DNA of 64,000 nt from Stentor roeselii (taxonomy: Eukaryota > Ciliophora > Heterotrichea > Heterotrichida > Stentoridae). Position 1 is the stretch's first letter; each line of letters starts with the position of its first letter. This document shows positions 1-12,584 of this stretch, one piece after another. The stretch is taken from the NCBI GenBank assembly GCA_006503475.1, contig RSEH01000093.1:1-64000 (forward strand), in the 5' to 3' direction. Made by a program: the position numbers and the translations under genes. The notes beneath the pieces were generated by a model. The model was not told where the DNA came from. It saw only the letters and a program-made list of their open reading frames with translations, and ran no database searches.

Positions 1-688
1 TTTTTGAGATATGGTTTGACAATTTTACCTGAGTATATAAAATATTGACTAATACATCTCAAACCACTTAATCTTTTCAATTTTGGCAAGGGATAACAAG
101 AATGAAGCTGATATTTTTTAGAGAATGTAAATTTTAGTATTTTTTAACAATTTTACCATGATTTCCATATATATAGATATCCTTCCAAAATTTAGTGTCA
201 CATTCTCTAAATTTTTCTACTCTTAAAACTCACTTCAATTCTAACTGAAATAATTTCTAAATTCTAAAAAAATATACAATCTCATCAAAAATTTATAAAA
301 AAATGATTTCCAATAATACTGTAAATAAGACCCTTATTGTTTATTACAAGAATCTACTCTAATCAATCAAGAAAGAATTTTAATTTTCTTATGCATCAAA
401 ATGATGAATTAAATAACGCTTTCCACTACTTCACATTCATCGAATATATTATAAAAATTATAATTTCTTTCTAATAATTTAAGTATTCTATTAAAAATTG
501 AAGCAAGTCATCTAATCAAAGAATTCCATTTTAAAAGTGCAAGACATTTAACATTTTTAAACACCGAACATATTTTTATATTTCTATTAGTTTCTTATCA
601 AAAACAAACAAGAATCTCTTTTCATAATTATGCAAATTTTATTTAAGCAAGCCAACTTCTAAATATTTTAAATTTTTTTAAACCTAAG
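1..688. other. Gene-poor AT-rich stretch
   Basis: AT-rich DNA without an open frame of useful length on either strand. It lies downstream of the minus-strand MGC-family gene at 689-919 and so should contain its 3' untranslated region. I see no RNA gene or repeat here. Confidence 0.6.
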
Positions 689-919
689 TCAATCATTTTC
701 ACTATCTTTAGAATCAGCTCTCATCCTTATCCTAAGATCTGAGCCAGAAACTCCTTTGATAGAAGAATATTCCTGAGATGAGCTGACTTCATTGACCATG
801 AACAGTCCTTTTTTCTTCATTCTTCTTGAATCAGAGAGCTTGAAAGGTGTTTGAATATTTTTTAGGTCTTGTGTTGAACTTCTTGTGTTTTCAGTCACTC
901 TTCGCAATCCACATCCCAT
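689..919 (-). CDS. MGC-family small acylated protein, copy A
   Basis: A 76-residue protein of unknown function. It opens Met-Gly-Cys-Gly, so Gly2 (N-myristoylation) and Cys3 (S-palmitoylation) form a plausible dual-acylation signal that would place it at a membrane. There is no transmembrane segment. The middle holds the family signature (basic RRMK, then KGLF, then an acidic/serine block EVSSSQEYSSIK), and the tail is charged and ends in acidic residues. It is 65/76 identical to the copy at 5065-5295; the last 33 residues are identical although six nucleotides differ, so every change there is synonymous, which argues that this is a real protein under selection. Two more diverged copies lie at 2029-2205 and 4299-4505. 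A 39-nt element upstream (933-971) is also shared with the 5065 copy. No known family is recognised; acylation is inferred from the N-terminus only. Confidence 0.8.
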   Translation of the reverse strand: MGCGLRRVTENTRSSTQDLKNIQTPFKLSDSRRMKKKGLFMVNEVSSSQEYSSIKGVSGSDLRIRMRADSKDSEND

Positions 920-932
920 TTTTTATAAGTAA

Positions 933-971
933 CCATTAATTTATTAAACAACTCTGCAATCACATTAATCT
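933..971 (-). promoter_or_regulatory. Conserved upstream element of MGC copy A
   Basis: A 39-nt block starting 13 nt upstream of the ATG matches the block at 5309-5347 at 38 of 39 positions, with the same 13-nt spacing to the start codon. It is better conserved than the N-terminal half of the coding region it precedes. It may be a promoter or 5' leader element; recent shared ancestry of the duplicate is the alternative. Confidence 0.5.
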
Positions 972-2028
972 GAGTTTAAATTACAATAGAATCTCAAAAA
1001 TATTACATGAAAGGTATTTTTTATAAAAAGTCCTCAAATTTGTTGAAAAGTTTAAATCTTTTGTTGAAGTTTCTGGACTAACAGAAATTTTGGTCTGGGG
1101 TAAACTTTGAATTTTGACTTTGCTTGTATTTTAGAATAATTTTTAAGATTTACTGATATAGAGAAATATGAGAAGATTTAGACTTTTGCAGGAAGAATAT
1201 GGACTGGCCTGCGGATGTTAAATGAGAAGATATGAGAATTGTTTAGTTTGATTAAAATACAGGCTTACTTCTGGATTATATAGATCTTTTGAAAGATTGG
1301 GCTGAAAGTAGGATTTTTGTATAGGATTTATTTTAGACGATCAAGACTTGATTTATTGTGTGATTAATTCAGTTCTTTACTAATTTAGAAGCATCTGCAA
1401 GTTCCCAGTGATTAAGAATCGTTTTAGGCCTTCTTTGAAAAACTTGAAGTTACTTCAATCCTTTAAGTGAGAGGATTGCAGGCCTTTTATATTAGTATCA
1501 CTGGATTCTAAAATTTCGAATCAATTATTATATCAGAAAAAAATCATTCTTAGAAAAGTTGAGGAATTCTATTGTCACTCAAGAGAAGGAAAAACTAAAA
1601 AAATTTCTGAAAATAAAAAAACATTTATCTTGATGGCAGATTGATGGCCTTGGATATGAATCCTACAGTCTCAGTTTTCGAAAAATCTTCACTTACCTGC
1701 ACTTATTAAAGGCTTTTTATCATAGTTTGGATTAATTAATTCTCAAGATATTAGAAGATAAATTTTTGGCTGAAATCTAGACCATATATTAGATAATAGT
1801 AGAACTTTATTATTGAATTTATATTTGTGATATATATAAGCTTGGTTTAAATAAATAATTGAAGGAAATTACACAACTATTATCAATCCTTTAGCGATAA
1901 ATGTTACTTCTATGTAAAACAATTATATAATTGAATCTAGGAATATAATTATTTAAATGACAAAAACTATTAAATTATAAACAAGTATCCCATAAACTAT
2001 TAATTAAGTAGTCTTTATTGAAATGCAG
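972..2028. other. Intergenic, no gene seen
   Basis: About 1.05 kb between two minus-strand MGC-family genes. All six frames are interrupted often. I looked for a decayed MGC-family copy (KGLF / SSQE signature) and found none I could support. Confidence 0.55.
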
Positions 2029-2205
2029 TCAAGGCCCTTCTTTGATTGAAGAACTTTCTTGGGAAGAGTTAAGTTCAAAAATAGTAAATAATCCTTTTTT
2101 GTTCATATTTTTTGATTTTGATAATCTTAGGATGTCATTAGCTGATTTTAAAGAGTAATCAGTCTCTGTATTTTTTACTGATTGTTTGTACTGAATGCAT
2201 CCCAT
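2029..2205 (-). CDS. MGC-family small protein, short copy (58 aa)
   Basis: A 58-residue reading frame found by reading the minus strand. It begins MGCIQYKQS and holds the family core: an Asn-Met-Asn-Lys-Lys-Gly-Leu-Phe stretch followed by FELNSSQESSSIKEGP, then a TGA stop. It aligns through this core with the copies at 689, 4299 and 5065, but lacks the basic and acidic tail found in the two 76-residue members. Gly2-Cys3 is kept, so dual acylation is again plausible. Same strand as its relatives. The preserved signature at the right distance from an MGC start makes chance unlikely, but expression is unproven. A 10-bp inverted repeat with a T17 run lies just upstream (2222-2262). Confidence 0.7.
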   Translation of the reverse strand: MGCIQYKQSVKNTETDYSLKSANDILRLSKSKNMNKKGLFTIFELNSSQESSSIKEGP

Positions 2206-2221
2206 TATTATAGCCTAATGT

Positions 2222-2262
2222 GTCAAATTTTTTTTTTTTTTTTTCGAAAACTAAAATTTGAC
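2222..2262. repeat. Inverted repeat with T17 tract
   Basis: Perfect 10-bp arms (GTCAAATTTT at 2222-2231 and AAAATTTGAC at 2253-2262) surround a run of 17 T (2228-2244) and the palindrome TTTTCGAAAA (2241-2250). It begins 17 nt upstream of the start codon of the 58-residue MGC-family gene. It could be a regulatory hairpin or a chance AT-rich structure. Confidence 0.5.
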
Positions 2263-3211
2263 TTGCAAAATTTCGCCTATTCAAAGTTGTTCTGAATAAG
2301 AAGATTGATTTATGAATACTTAAAAATCATAGGAAGAAAAAAAATATATAATCATAGAGTGCTTTATTCTTAGTTATTTTCTTACATAGATTTCTTGATT
2401 CGATTGAAATCTTGGAAATTAAGTGTTTTTTTGGCTATTTTAGAGTCTTTACATTATAATATTTAAACAAATAATTTAATTTTCTTCACAATTTTAAATT
2501 TTACTTGGGTTTCGAAATAGCATGAACATCACACTTATAAACTTAGAAAGGAATTAAAGTATTTTTGTTAAGCTTTAAGTAAATCCTTCAATATTTCCTT
2601 TTGTTATCACTTTCATTTGAAATTTGTCAAATTATATACTTGAAGCTCCATTATATTTAAATTTCTTTGTAATAAAGCGTTTTAAGTTTTACTGATTTAA
2701 TTTTGTTATATTTTCTCTCATAAACCTAGCTAATTTGAAATATAGTAATTATATGATCTATTTTGCATTCATACTGCATTTGTAAGGGGTCAAGTCTTAA
2801 TTCGCATGAATTTTCAAGACATTTTAAAAATATTTTCGCAAGTTGATTAAACTTAAATAAGGATAGTAAAATGTTAGATAATTATTTCGGTTTTACATTT
2901 TTACAAGAATTATCGATTTAACTTTCTTCTTTAAATTTTTGATTGAAAATTGGTATATTACTGTATAAGATCTAAATAAAGACTTTATCCCATTATAAGA
3001 GAAGGTATAACTATTTTTAAATTTATTTTAAATATATTTTGTGGTACCTTCAAAGAAAGAACTTTGAAAAACAGTTGCAAAGTAAATCAAGAGGAGTGAA
3101 TGCTGAGATTCCATTTATGATGCTAATACTCTGGAAATTCACCCATTTTGAATATTCATTTAAATCTTGTTTAACCTAATCTACCCATGACCCAAACTTG
3201 CATTTTAACAA
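2263..3211. other. Intergenic, no gene seen
   Basis: About 950 bp of AT-rich DNA between the divergent MGC-family gene (minus) and the STPGR-repeat gene (plus). It should hold the promoters of both. I recognise no motif. Confidence 0.55.
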
Positions 3212-3937
3212 ATGATTTCATATGATAACTGGGAAGCAGGTCCTGGAAGTTACAACATATCCCAAGACCTAGCCCAGACCTCATCAATCTACTACAACGC
3301 GCCCCGTCCTTTAATCGGCAAAGCCGAGAAAATTTCCTCAATCTCAAAATCATCTCTAAAATCATCTCCCTGTCCAACATCCTCATACGACCCACCCAGC
3401 CATTCTCTATTCAGATCATCAAGCAGCACAAAATTCGGTCACGAGAAGCGAAAAGACTATTTCCTTCAAAGTCAAGACAGGTCCCCAGGTCCTATTTACA
3501 AGGTGACCCTGAAGCCAAAAACAGGAATTTCTTTTTCAAAAGCGCGAAAAAAAGACTCAGAAATTCCAATATTTCCAAGTCCAAACTCTTATAACCCGAT
3601 GAGGTCCAGAACAAAAATCGCGATCAAGTTAAAAGGAACCCGGTCAGAGAAAGTTTATCAGAAAAATGTTGAAAAATTCTTAAAAGGACTCATTGGGCCT
3701 GGACCTGCAGAACATTCTTGGACTGGGAAACTTGAAAAAGGAATAAAAATTTCTAGGTCTTCGAAAGAATCGGAATTTGTTGTAAGGACATCGACACCTG
3801 GACCTGGAACTTACCAGGTGGATAGGAATAAGTTTTTTGGTAAAGGGCATCGATTTCCGGCGGCTTGTAGAAAACTTGATATTAGGGCTTGTAAGAGATA
3901 TATAGATCGAAATTCTCATGAATTTTTTAGGTTTTGA
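3212..3937 (+). CDS. STPGR/SHIPPO-repeat protein (CIMAP/ODF3-like)
   Basis: A 241-residue basic protein with repeated Pro-Gly-Pro motifs typical of STPGR (SHIPPO) repeats: AGPGSYNI near residue 9, SPGPIYKV near 93, SPNSYNP near 124, IGPGPAEH near 162 and TPGPGTYQV near 195. Proteins of this class (ODF3/CIMAP family) lie inside or along axonemal and other stable microtubules, so a role in cilia or the cortical microtubule bundles is likely. There is no membrane segment. The ATG at 3212 is the first in frame and gives a repeat almost at once, which supports the start. It is on the plus strand inside a cluster of minus-strand MGC genes. Family assignment is firm; the particular subfamily is not. 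Confidence 0.85.
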   Translation: MISYDNWEAGPGSYNISQDLAQTSSIYYNAPRPLIGKAEKISSISKSSLKSSPCPTSSYDPPSHSLFRSSSSTKFGHEKRKDYFLQSQDRSPGPIYKVTLKPKTGISFSKARKKDSEIPIFPSPNSYNPMRSRTKIAIKLKGTRSEKVYQKNVEKFLKGLIGPGPAEHSWTGKLEKGIKISRSSKESEFVVRTSTPGPGTYQVDRNKFFGKGHRFPAACRKLDIRACKRYIDRNSHEFFRF

Positions 3938-4298
3938 AGTAGTTTGGAAGTAGTGATTTTGGTGTTTAAGTTTTTTTAGTTTTTTTAGTAGGTGATGAAA
4001 ATGGCTTTGGTTGTTGTAGGTTGGGTTGTTCTCGAATGATTGGGGTTTTTTTTGATTTTGGTTTATGAGAGAAGAGGTGGTTTTTTGATTCTTTTGAGAG
4101 GTTTTTGGAGTTTTTTAAGGCGATTGTTGGTTATAAGGGATTTAAGTTTTTCATTGTGGGAATTAGAAAAAAACTACTAAAGTGAAACTCCTGTTATAAA
4201 GATAGTTTAGAGAACGTTATTTGAGTATATGATTTTAAATACCTAAAATGATCAAGTTTTGGTGAATAACATTAGCAAGTTTAAAAAAATTTTTTATC
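3938..4298. other. T/G-rich spacer between convergent genes
   Basis: About 360 bp between the 3' ends of the STPGR gene (plus) and an MGC-family gene (minus). The first half is unusually rich in T and G on the plus strand. No open frame of note. Confidence 0.5.
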
Positions 4299-4505
4299 TC
4301 AGGTCTTCTGATTATCCTGTCTCCGAACTGATTCAATTTCCTTGAAGAATGAAAACTCCTCTGAAGAGTTAACTTCATTAATAAGAAAAAGCCCTTTATC
4401 TTTCATTCTTTTCATATCAGATATCCTAAAAACAAGTTCATTCGATTTAAATTCATGAGTGTTTCTTCCCGATTTTTCATGTGCTTTATTAATACCACAA
4501 CCCAT
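4299..4505 (-). CDS. MGC-family small acylated protein, diverged copy (68 aa)
   Basis: A 68-residue member of the MGC family. It begins MGCGINKAHEKSGR and keeps the core: KRMKDKGLFLINEVNSSEEF, then FFKE. The tail differs from the 76-residue copies and is basic rather than acidic. Gly2 and Cys3 are kept, with a basic cluster after them that would aid membrane contact. It sits about 560 bp from the 5065 copy, in the same orientation, consistent with tandem duplication followed by divergence. Function unknown. Confidence 0.75.
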   Translation of the reverse strand: MGCGINKAHEKSGRNTHEFKSNELVFRISDMKRMKDKGLFLINEVNSSEEFSFFKEIESVRRQDNQKT

Positions 4506-5064
4506 TTATAAACCATGCCATTATAATCTTATTCCAATTGAATTATACTATTATAATATTTGATTATAATATAGCTATGAAATATTTACATTAAAAATAA
4601 GCAGGGGTTTAGGATTTATTTCCAATGAAATATGAATGCTCTACTTTTGGTATCGAGCATTATAAACTAAATATAAGTAGTATCTAAAAAAATTGTCTTA
4701 ATCAGATAACTTTTGAAAAAGGAAAATTTTATGTTTCATATAATTGAAAACAAATTATCATTAATTATGAAGATAAATATCATATGATTCAGAAGCTCTA
4801 AAAGCAAGAAAAATACAAAGAGTTTTAAAAAATTTACTGATTTTTTTACAGTTAATTTTCTATATCATTTTGATTAGGCTAGAATTCGAGTCATCATTAA
4901 CCCAATCATTATACTAAAAATCCTAAACTTCAAACCGCTTAAAAGACCTGAAATTTCCTTAGAATTCCTGTATCATAAATACTGAAAATATCCATTTCAT
5001 TACACGAAACCTTTACTAAAACCAAGCCAAATTCTAAAAATATATAAAATTATTTAAAACAGAT
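4506..5064. other. Intergenic between two MGC-family genes
   Basis: About 560 bp of AT-rich DNA. It includes the upstream region of the 4299-4505 gene, where a short CCATTATAATCTTATT stretch weakly resembles the conserved element of the other copies, and the 3' flank of the 5065 gene. No other feature seen. Confidence 0.5.
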
Positions 5065-5295
5065 TTAATCATTTTCACTATCCTTAGAATCAGCTCTCAT
5101 CCTAATCCTTAGATCTGAGCCAGAAACTCCTTTAATAGACGAATATTCCTGTGATGAGCTGACTTCAGCAACCATAAAAAGGCCCTTTATCTTCATTCTC
5201 CTTGCATCGGAGACCTTAAAAGGTACATTAATAGTTTTAAGGTCTTGTGTCGATCTTCTGGTCTTTTCAGTCAACCTCTGCAATCCACATCCCAT
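5065..5295 (-). CDS. MGC-family small acylated protein, copy C
   Basis: A 76-residue protein, closest relative of the gene at 689-919 (65/76 identical). It begins MGCGLQRLTEKTRRST, with Gly2/Cys3 as a possible myristoyl-palmitoyl signal, followed by basic residues. The family core (ARRMKIKGLFMVAEVSSSQE) and the last 33 residues are the same as in copy A, with only synonymous nucleotide changes in the tail. Differences lie mostly in residues 6-43. Likely a cytoplasmic-face membrane-associated small protein. Nothing else about its role can be read from the sequence. Confidence 0.8.
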   Translation of the reverse strand: MGCGLQRLTEKTRRSTQDLKTINVPFKVSDARRMKIKGLFMVAEVSSSQEYSSIKGVSGSDLRIRMRADSKDSEND

Positions 5296-5308
5296 TTTAT
5301 ATAACTAG

Positions 5309-5347
5309 CCATTAATTTATTAAACAACTCTGCAATCATATTAATCT
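5309..5347 (-). promoter_or_regulatory. Conserved upstream element of MGC copy C
   Basis: Partner of the block at 933-971: 38 of 39 positions identical and again 13 nt upstream of the ATG. Outside this block the upstream regions of the two copies diverge quickly. Confidence 0.5.
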
Positions 5348-6162
5348 CATAGTAAATAACTAGAGAATAGTAAAAAATATCAGATAAAAGGTTTTTTCTA
5401 TCTTGAATCTCAGAAATCACTCAAAAGTTTTCATATTTTCCAGAGAGTTTCTAAAAAGGTATTTAGACGTCACTGAAAGGTTTTGATTCGAGAATTTGTT
5501 CTTGATTTAAAAGAAGTATAAGAAATCATTCGAAGGTGTAGAGAACTATTCAAAAGTTCGATGAAATGGGGAAGATATATCCCGGGATCTTGCTTTTTTT
5601 GATTGGAGAGACAGGCGAAGACTTGGAACTATGAAACTTTCTAGTTTTATTTGGATTTTTTAAGGTTTTTTGTCTCATTGTGAGGATCTCATAGTTCACA
5701 AGGCTTAATTTAGAAATTTTTCTAGAAAGTTACGAATTCTTATTTTCATTTGAACTTCTGAGATTTCAATCAGTTCATCAACAATTCTAACCATTTTGTT
5801 CTTAATCCGATAAACCATTAACACCAGACCCAGTACATCCGAGAATCATTTGAAGTACTCTTGAGTTCTAAAGATCTCAAACTTCTTTTCTATAGTGAGA
5901 ATAATTCAAGCCTCAAAAATGATCTTCTCCGAAATTATCCATCAAGAAAATCCTTAACAATTCACACGATCCTTAGAAAAAAATTTGAGGTTTTTTTGAT
6001 AAAATTCGATGAAATCGCTTAAATTTGTCAAAAAATTGAAAAATTCCTCTTTTCAAAAAGTCCATCATTCAGAAAAAACCAAAAAAATCTCATATTTTAG
6101 AATCTTTCCTTAATCTAAAGAAAGTCACTTCAAAATGAAAAGTTTCAACATTTAAGTTATTC
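5348..6162. other. Intergenic, no gene seen
   Basis: About 815 bp between the promoter side of an MGC-family gene and the 3' end of the coiled-coil gene. No open frame or repeat that I can support. Confidence 0.55.
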
Positions 6163-10379: not shown

Positions 10380-12080
10380 TTAGCAGTCAAAAGTCTTGTC
10401 TATCGGAAACTCGAAAAGCTTCAGGCCTTTGAACCCATTATTGACAGTCAGCATCTTTCGAGCTTCGATCATCGGGTTGACGACTCTTGAAGACTGCATT
10501 AATCCCCGTTGATTGTTTTTCACTTTAAACTCATCAAAATAAACCAGTGGAGGAAAAACTGGTGCTTTTGAACTTTTGTACTTTTTTATCTGCGGACGAG
10601 AAAGTCTTTCAAAAACAGTTGAATTCGGTTTCTCACTTTCAACAGGTGATGTTAAATTTGGAATAGAACTACAACGATTTCCCTTTAACTCCACAACTTT
10701 TTTCCCAGCCTTTCTAATATCTTTTAAAGTTTTCACATGTTTGCTATCTTTTTCCAATTGAACCTTTTTATTCTTAGGTCCTCCAGTCCATTCCTGATAA
10801 GCTTCAAGTGCAAAGTCTAGAAACTTTTGGTACTTTTCTTCATTATCAAGAGGAAAAACTTTCCGAAATCCTTGAAAATGTTTACTTTCCCATTTATCTC
10901 TTTTTTCCTTAGCCAAGGCGATTTTCAAGTTCCTTTCTTCTTTCGTTTCTCTTTCAAGTCTTCCAGTAAGTGCCCGTTTCATGACCATTTCCTTTTGTTT
11001 GACAAGGAACTGTTTCCGTGCCCTTGCAGTGACATTCATTAAAACCAGTGCATCACGAATGACTTTTTTTTTAATTTTCCAGTCAAGAGGTGAGTCAGTA
11101 GTGAAGGAAGGAGTATGATTGACTTCAAGGACATAAGGTCTTGCCTTGTGATCCAAAATGACATCAAAGCCGAGGACTTCAAAGCACATTCCATTTGTGA
11201 GGTCTTCAGGTTGACAAGACCTGTAATGATGGGCGAGAGTTGGCTGAATGGAACAAAGAGTCTTAATAATGGCGTCGTCAATGGTCGCTTTTAACAGGTC
11301 AACATCAAAGCCCTCAGCTTTAAGACAGTCATACGTCGACTGCAGAGACCTTTTGTGCCCTGAGTCATCATCTGAGTCTTCACAATGCACGAAGTTCGGG
11401 TTGTTCTTGTTCACTGCGTAGTTCGTCAAATGCATGCACATGTCGTCTGAGTTACTCGCACTCGGCCTGCAGTACTCTTCAGTCGCGAAACGCGTCAAGC
11501 CCTCCTCATGGACGAAAATCCTCAGAGGGTCACATCCAGCAACTAGCACATAAATCCTTAAGTCAAACTTCAAATTTTCTATTAAATAAGGCTTCTTCAG
11601 GTACTCTTGTACTACAAAACGACCGTTCGTGTCAATGTTTTCAAGTTTTTTAGTTAAAAATATCCCTCGGCCTTGACAAGATGCCTCTGGTTTCACTATC
11701 AGATATGAGGACTTGTTTAATTGGAGAAAAGTACGAAGTTCGCTTTGGTCACATGGAAAAAGCCAGGATTTTGGAAAAAAATTGTAATCTTCAGGGAATT
11801 TCTTTTTTAGCTTTGATAAGTTCATTGCTAAGTAGTTTTTTCGGGATATTGAGTACATTCCTGGGAAATGGTTGATTTTTTGATATGGATGCATTTTTGA
11901 TAAACGCTCTGGGGGCACTGCGGTGTCTGTCCATAGAATGTCCCATTTTTCGTCTTCTTCGTCGTTGGATAACTTCCAACCCAGGGTTTTACTTGCTACG
12001 TGTTTCACGACTTCGTATTTTGTGAAGGAGATGTTGCAGGTTATTGAAGACTTTTTTGGTTTTAGAGGAGTTTCTTCCAT
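10380..12080 (-). CDS. Tubulin tyrosine ligase-like protein, TTLL6/13 type (polyglutamylase)
   Basis: A 566-residue ATP-grasp enzyme predicted to add glutamate chains to tubulin tails in cilia and cortical microtubules. The TTL domain covers residues about 20-345: KPEASCQGRGIFL near 132 (nucleotide binding), FDLRIYVLVAGCDPLRIF near 172, then GLTRFATEEY, MHLTNYAVNK near 215, and DVILDHKARPYVLEVNHTPSF near 307, whose Glu and Asn are metal ligands. The CQGRGI, CDPLRIFV and LTNYAVNK forms match the TTLL6/TTLL13 branch. Residues 345-460 are a basic helical region as seen after the catalytic core of glutamylases (microtubule-binding region), and the tail is disordered. A second TTLL gene lies at 44981-46864. 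Elongating polyglutamylase activity is inferred from the family. Confidence 0.88.
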   Translation of the reverse strand: MEETPLKPKKSSITCNISFTKYEVVKHVASKTLGWKLSNDEEDEKWDILWTDTAVPPERLSKMHPYQKINHFPGMYSISRKNYLAMNLSKLKKKFPEDYNFFPKSWLFPCDQSELRTFLQLNKSSYLIVKPEASCQGRGIFLTKKLENIDTNGRFVVQEYLKKPYLIENLKFDLRIYVLVAGCDPLRIFVHEEGLTRFATEEYCRPSASNSDDMCMHLTNYAVNKNNPNFVHCEDSDDDSGHKRSLQSTYDCLKAEGFDVDLLKATIDDAIIKTLCSIQPTLAHHYRSCQPEDLTNGMCFEVLGFDVILDHKARPYVLEVNHTPSFTTDSPLDWKIKKKVIRDALVLMNVTARARKQFLVKQKEMVMKRALTGRLERETKEERNLKIALAKEKRDKWESKHFQGFRKVFPLDNEEKYQKFLDFALEAYQEWTGGPKNKKVQLEKDSKHVKTLKDIRKAGKKVVELKGNRCSSIPNLTSPVESEKPNSTVFERLSRPQIKKYKSSKAPVFPPLVYFDEFKVKNNQRGLMQSSRVVNPMIEARKMLTVNNGFKGLKLFEFPIDKTFDC

Positions 12081-12584
12081 TTTAGAATTATTTTTGATTA
12101 ATTTGGATTTGGGGTAAGGTTTTTTGGTTTGGTTATGGGTTTGGAGGATGAGAGGTCTTTTTGGGATTGAAGATTGTTATGATTATTTTCATCATTCTTT
12201 AATATTAAATTTTCTTTTGAATTTTAAAAATTATAAGAAACCTTACTATTCAAAGTTAATCTTATCAGACATGACTCAAGTTTGATTGTCTAGTTGCTTC
12301 TCAAAAAAAAATTTCATAGGTAAATAATCAAAAATAACAAAATTACTTAAAACACAAAATATTTTCAGTGAATCAAAGAAATCAAATATATTGCCCTAGA
12401 ACTAACTTCTTTTCACTCTAGTTTCTTCTCAAAAAACAAGTTCATATGCAAGTAATCAATAATAACAAAATTACCAAAAACACAAAATATTTTGAGTGAA
12501 TCCAAGAAATCATGCCTAGTTAAAAATTATTTCTGTAAAAAATGAAGTCTTCAAATAATCTTAATCAAATCTAACAAAAATCCT
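12081..12584. other. Intergenic with a 96-nt duplicated block
   Basis: About 500 bp between the TTLL start and the 3' end of the zinc-finger gene. It contains the two-copy direct repeat described separately and no reading frame. Confidence 0.6.
12289..12512. repeat. Imperfect tandem duplication, 2 x 96 nt
   Basis: Block 12289-12384 and block 12417-12512 both start TCTAGTT(G/T)CTTCTC and end AGAAATCA. They are colinear without large gaps, each 96 nt, with a period of 128 nt, and share the phrases AATAACAAAATTAC and ACACAAAATATTTT. Non-coding in all frames. It looks like a local duplication that has since diverged. Confidence 0.75.

Follow-up and report, generated by a model that had tools for sequence, protein, structure and literature searches.

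We examined a stretch of 64,000 nucleotides from the ciliate Stentor roeselii (GenBank assembly GCA_006503475.1, contig RSEH01000093.1, positions 1 to 64,000 of the forward strand), referred to here as the window, whose first few kilobases carry a cluster of very small genes for proteins that begin with Met-Gly-Cys (MGC). The initial annotation of this DNA had placed four such frames on the minus strand, and its coordinates proved right, with MGC-starting products of 76, 58, 68 and 76 residues. The four proteins are homologous, as had been proposed: a whole-genome search with the fourth (P0004) returned the other three at E = 3.3e-36, 6.5e-12 and 2.3e-4. A family size of four, in contrast, was an underestimate, as the genome search added nine more, resulting in at least 13 members on six contigs. 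This count is a lower bound from protein searches, listings of open reading frames (ORFs) and scans for ATG-GGN-TGY starts in 44.4 Mb of genome. The members span 56–95 residues and are located as follows, with the other contigs given by our own labels:

689..919, minus strand: member 1 (P0001), 76 residues and a TGA stop
2029..2205, minus strand: member 2 (P0002), 58 residues and a TGA stop
4299..4505, minus strand: member 3 (P0003), 68 residues and a TGA stop
5065..5295, minus strand: member 4 (P0004), 76 residues and a TAA stop
C208:57686-57859, minus strand: fifth copy, from the genome search
C120, starts at 10978, 9393, 8682 and 7710, all minus strand: four members, from the genome search
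C191:6395, minus strand: a distant member
C338:77161 and 77826, plus strand: two distant members
C137:176230, plus strand: a member found with a consensus query

The three distant members on C191 and C338 were scored with a profile of the nine close members, using 20,000 shuffled MGC-starting sequences as controls. Two of them reached 28.4 and 24.1 bits, compared with 19.3 bits for the best control. The third, one of the C338 pair, scored 11.5 bits, which 42 of the 20,000 controls matched, making it a weak member on its own; it is linked to its C338 neighbor at E of about 1e-6. A genetic code with TGA as a sense codon was considered and set aside: it leaves the six longest ORFs of the window unaltered and lengthens some shorter ones, and an in-frame TGA in the C208 member is the stop codon of that member. 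Members 1 and 4 also stop at the same codon, one with TGA and the other with TAA, so the standard code appears to fit.

As the initial annotation had supposed, the family signature matched no named family in the collections searched. In a Pfam scan of 8 of the 13 members, seven had no match at E ≤ 10 and the other gave a weak hit to DUF5715 (E 0.016), while a PDB search with a profile of eight members returned nothing at E ≤ 10, so neither resource names a family. Searches of viral and prokaryote collections with P0004 gave 3 and 86 pattern matches, respectively, and no relative by tblastn, these being single-protein queries that bring only close relatives within reach. The small MGC-protein family is real and appears to be undescribed.

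Alignment of the 13 members revealed that M1, G2, C3, L39, E44, E50, and S52 are identical in all of them, that only V or I occurs at position 42, and that K37 and S48 are each kept in 12. The core had earlier been described as KGLF followed by E-(V/L)-x-SS; a core is indeed shared, but KGLF is not family-wide, with its G and F lost in distant members. Contained in this core is the pattern L-x-x-[I/V]-x-E, which is central to what follows.

The close pair formed by members 1 and 4 gives the clearest record of selection. Codons 44–76 differ at six sites, all six synonymous and none nonsynonymous, confirming the reported identity of the last 33 residues, and in 20,000 trials in which six changes were placed at random the tail protein was left unaltered in none; the stop codon differs between the two as well. 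Strong selection on the tail therefore stands for this pair, but the identical tail is confined to it, and the part conserved across the family is shorter than those 33 residues. Over their whole length up to the stop, the two genes show 33 nucleotide differences, of which 22 fall at third positions; there are 11 amino-acid changes, against 23 expected under random placement, and the dN/dS of 0.15 indicates purifying selection. Two further pairs were compared: dN/dS is 0.35 between member 2 and the C208 member and 0.19 between members 3 and 4, the latter with dS above 2.

A TATA-like sequence (TATAA, TATAT or TAATAA) lies within 14 bases before the ATG in 12/12 members. Among long ORFs of the contig the figure is 18 of 48, and at random places it is 3.7% (Fisher p 1.2e-4 for 12/12 versus 18/48, for a pattern picked after the sequences had been viewed). 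The sequence may be a promoter element close to the start, in which case the leaders would be very short. When six-frame fragments of 258,038 bases were scanned for degenerate copies with a 13-member profile, which was built from the same members and with C137 outside the scanned set, the 12 resident members were returned, no broken copies were seen, and the range between 61.7 and 8.8 bits was empty. These results bear on whether the frames are non-functional, that is, chance ORFs or decaying copies. The frames are very short, and codon usage gives weak support for coding, with the true frame outscoring the two other forward frames in only 8/12 members; set against this are the low dN/dS of members 1 and 4, the retention of MGC and the core in 13/13, the TATA-like element ahead of every ATG checked, and the lack of broken copies in the bases scanned. 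We consider it very unlikely that these genes lack a function.

The L-x-x-[I/V]-x-E pattern is a candidate docking motif for the B56 subunit of protein phosphatase 2A (PP2A-B56). According to a review, the B56 docking consensus is [LMFI]xx[ILV]xE, in which the Glu at position 6 is invariant; affinity rises when positions 2, 7, 8, and 9 carry acidic or phosphorylated residues (PMC10970375). A structural study reports that some B56 partners also depend on a basic patch, lying up to about 15 residues ahead of LxxIxE, that meets an acidic patch on B56 (PMC7108865). Both elements have candidates in the window:

809..826, minus strand: RRMKKK basic stretch, member 1 residues 32–37; its counterparts in the other members directly precede the motif
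788..805, minus strand: LFMVNE, L-x-x-V-x-E candidate B56 motif, member 1 residues 39–44
2074..2091, minus strand: LFTIFE, L-x-x-I-x-E candidate motif, member 2 residues 39–44
4374..4391, minus strand: LFLINE, L-x-x-I-x-E candidate motif, member 3 residues 39–44
5164..5181, minus strand: LFMVAE, L-x-x-V-x-E candidate motif, member 4 residues 39–44

All 13 members fit the [LMFI]xx[ILV]xE consensus at one aligned column, and the 15 residues preceding the motif carry a net charge of +2 to +5 in every one. Column shuffling of the 13 members produced the L/[VI]/E spacing in 0.22% of cases with core columns and 0.07% with body columns; the corresponding values for the nine close members were 0.22% and 0.08%, and those for 12 members reached up to 0.29%, giving an overall p of 0.0006–0.003 that is uncorrected for choice among known motifs. 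The strict motif has a background of 1.02 per 1000 residues in 62 proteins of the window's contig, and it arose in 4.3% of shuffled members, as did the relaxed form in 18.8%. Of 12 members, 10 contain only one motif, even when the pattern is relaxed. Ser or Thr occupies motif position 8 or 9 in 11/13, and a CK2-type S-x-x-E is present at motif position 9 in 9/13. The C137 member was predicted to carry both MGC and LxxIxE before its sequence was read, and both were present.

We compared 24 short-motif patterns across 12 members, and the two B56 forms alone matched 12/12 at one aligned column. PP1 RVxF and SILK, calcineurin, MAPK docking, dileucine, YxxPhi, 14-3-3, LIR, SIM, PKA-anchoring, and other patterns had no one-column conservation in 12/12. 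A rival reading of the core is a cyclin-docking motif of the RxL/Cy type, for which KGLF or KGLY would bring cyclin and its cyclin-dependent kinase to membranes. The cyclin-docking pattern, [RK].L.{0,1}[FYLIVMP], occurs anywhere in 11/12 members and at one aligned column in 9/12, with K-K-L-F one gap aside in the C191 member and K-T-L-F in the C137 member. Both C338 members, however, have no such pattern at the core, where L is followed by ET or GT, and still keep L-x-x-I-x-E, and we regard cyclin docking as very unlikely.

Every member also bears a candidate lipid-anchoring site at its N-terminus, which in member 1 lies here:

911..919, minus strand: Met-Gly-Cys start, a candidate site of N-myristoylation and S-acylation, likewise in every member

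N-myristoylation of Gly2 with palmitoylation of Cys3 had been suggested at the outset, and the case for it is mixed. Gly2-Cys3 follows Met in 13/13 members and the genome has an N-myristoyltransferase gene (PF02799, E = 2.1e-69); because MGC is invariant and the transferase is encoded, membrane anchoring is plausible. The classical myristoylation pattern (PROSITE PS00008), on the other hand, is satisfied at Gly2 in only 4/12 members, or 5/13 with C137 judged by eye, and position 6 is Arg in P0001 and Gln in P0004, with most members having no Ser or Thr there. In Toxoplasma, 11 high- or medium-confidence substrates were at odds with in-silico prediction of myristoylation (PMC7373427), and the failure of the pattern is therefore not decisive. 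Lipidation of the family members is, from their sequences, plausible but not settled.

Kinases and G-alpha subunits carry N-terminal MGC segments too, and two MGC-starting EF-hand kinases of the calcium-dependent type (CDPKs) lie on the window's own contig (C519:88319 and 120836, plus strand). They share the Met-Gly-Cys start with the family, but their position 6 is Ser and they contain EF-hand as well as kinase domains.

We found 10 B56-family matches in the genome, some of which are probably exons of one gene. The B56 genes are clustered and expanded on C93 and C437. Five of the sequences (two from C437, one from C20, and two from C93) were read in part, with human B56-gamma numbering verified on H187, R188, R201, E276, E310, D313, and E316, the residues named in PMC7108865. 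H187, R188, and R201 are all retained in three of the five (the C437 pair and C20), and R201 in all five. The three canonical proteins also retain Y190 and have D or E at 226, I or L at 227 and 231, and R in place of K at 240; we take positions 190, 226, 227, 231, and 240 to be pocket-lining. Acidic residues are kept at 310, 313, and 316 in the C437 pair. Less favorable to docking are the Cys at 310 in the C20 protein, the absence of acidic-patch residue E276 from all three canonical proteins, and the two C93 paralogues, which have no H187 or R188 while retaining R201. From this pattern of pocket residues, B56 proteins that look motif-competent coexist with diverged ones.

We suggest from these sequence features that the MGC proteins act as micro-adaptors, held on membranes by lipid and docking PP2A-B56 there, a proposal to which we give only slightly less than an even chance. 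Several features of the motif itself weigh against it. The B56 motif is short and was recognized post hoc, and the C137 prediction was a soft test because the consensus query itself held the motif. Position 4 is valine, not the preferred isoleucine, in 6/13 members, and acidic residues at the affinity positions are scarce (positions 2 and 7 each have a single E across the 13). In addition, E50 and S52, at positions 12 and 14 counting from the motif Leu, lie outside the published six-residue B56 core and yet are as invariant as the motif, so selection extends beyond a bare LxxIxE.

A rival reading is that these are lipid-anchored adaptors with a different binding partner for the core, L-x-x-[IV]-x-E-x3-S-x-E-x-S, and that its likeness to LxxIxE is coincidental. 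The invariance of E50 and S52, with S48 kept in 12/13, the general absence of affinity-raising acidic residues at positions 7–9, and the rate at which shuffled members regain the strict and relaxed motifs all point that way. The low p for the spacing does not, nor does the flanking basic stretch, which suits the B56 acidic patch described in PMC7108865, and none of the other patterns among the 24 was conserved at one column in 12/12. A partner other than B56 is a substantial possibility, though one that we place clearly below even. A further alternative accepts B56 as the partner and treats the proteins as abundant decoys that would inhibit PP2A-B56 on membranes by filling the groove of B56. 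Proteins this tiny leave little space for a substrate-binding part besides the motif, and 13 genes make the family multicopy; but high-affinity features are few, and 10 of the 12 members checked have a single motif. Recruiter and inhibitor are indistinguishable on present evidence, and we think decoys unlikely.

Under the docking proposal, the genes would encode very small, probably disordered adaptor proteins. Gly2 would be N-myristoylated and Cys3 S-acylated, placing the protein on a membrane, and the basic stretch followed by L-x-x-[I/V]-x-E, located 36–53 residues after Cys3, would then dock in the B56 substrate groove, the motif occupying the hydrophobic pocket of B56 and the basic stretch facing its acidic patch. 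Phosphorylation of the Ser/Thr just after the motif may adjust affinity. The net effect would be to concentrate PP2A-B56 at particular membranes, where it could oppose membrane-bound kinases, for example the MGC-type CDPKs of the same contig. A multigene family could supply a separate anchor for different membranes, stages or B56 paralogues.

Known systems offer partial parallels. Small lipidated proteins are known as kinase anchors, among them smAKAP (C2orf88), a tiny membrane-anchored PKA-RI anchor with an MGC start. The family resembles smAKAP in its size, its N-terminal MGC, and its one docking segment, which together make a lipid anchor joined to an enzyme-docking peptide; it differs in that the PKA-binding hydrophobic pattern, in a crude form, occurs in 0/12 members, and we claim no sequence relationship. 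By this analogy, we propose that the micro-anchors would be a phosphatase counterpart of the smallest kinase anchors such as smAKAP. Among B56 partners, the comparison is with KIF4A, NHS, AIM1, and RepoMan, presumably all large proteins, whereas the family members consist of little more than the motif and a candidate lipid anchor, with E and S invariant at positions 12 and 14 as well. Like the family, those partners combine a motif of the L-x-x-[I/V]-x-E type with a basic stretch no more than about 15 residues ahead of it (PMC7108865).

A further parallel is the yeast SPS sensor, in which Ptr3 and Ssy5 have proposed LxxIxE sites for Rts1, the yeast B56, so that B56-PP2A would be recruited at the membrane in opposition to plasma-membrane-anchored kinases (PMC12958826). 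Unlike the MGC proteins, Ptr3 and Ssy5 are large with folded domains, and there is no multigene micro-anchor family. We know of no dedicated lipidated PP2A-B56 anchor, and none was described in the titles and opening abstract lines of the literature searched. The more specific idea that these genes form a dedicated PP2A-B56 micro-anchor family, each with a dual lipid tag and one docking motif, in at least 13 copies beside expanded B56 genes, is one we hold tentatively and with appreciably less than even confidence.

The layout of the cluster suggests local duplication and a continuation beyond the window, as follows:

1..580: 96.4% identical, with 17 mismatches, to the terminal 578 bases at the right end of C208
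645..1024 versus 5020-5401: duplicated unit with 83% identity that takes in roughly 105 bp of DNA ahead of the ATG

Judging from this alignment, members 1 and 4 derive from a duplication of about 380 bp. The overlap is most simply read as two contigs that are probably neighbors, or as two haplotypes of a single locus; a diverged duplication is the alternative. In either of the first two cases, the fifth member would sit on the same strand roughly 1 kb beyond the left end of the window, and there are likely five same-strand copies within about 6.4 kb.

Opposite-strand genes sit between family copies both in the window's cluster and on C120. The one in the window (3212-3937, plus strand) encodes an STPGPGTY-type repeat with a weak sperm-tail PG-repeat match, and the one on C120 a 345-residue protein with a weak F-box-like match, both matches being under the Pfam cut-off. 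Beside the fifth copy on C208, L030:4901-7558 (plus strand) encodes an 885-residue protein with the N-terminus MGICSPKS and a kinase domain, its C-terminal part matching Pkinase; cyclic-nucleotide-binding repeats were seen by eye, making it protein kinase G-like. Elsewhere in the window, 12289-12384 and 12417-12512 form a 96-bp AT-rich direct duplication, 88.5% identical and, by eye, without a long reading frame.

According to a 2026 paper, a PP2A subunit was shown in earlier work to play an important part in morphogenesis of the Stentor ciliary band (PMC13291615). If the docking proposal is true, the family would bear on this role of PP2A in Stentor. Different membranes of one cell would each get their own B56 pool, and the family would offer a simple, easily mutated means of controlling where in a single cell a major phosphatase is active. 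Even if the B56 reading fails, these genes show that selected genes of 56–95 codons can escape notice.

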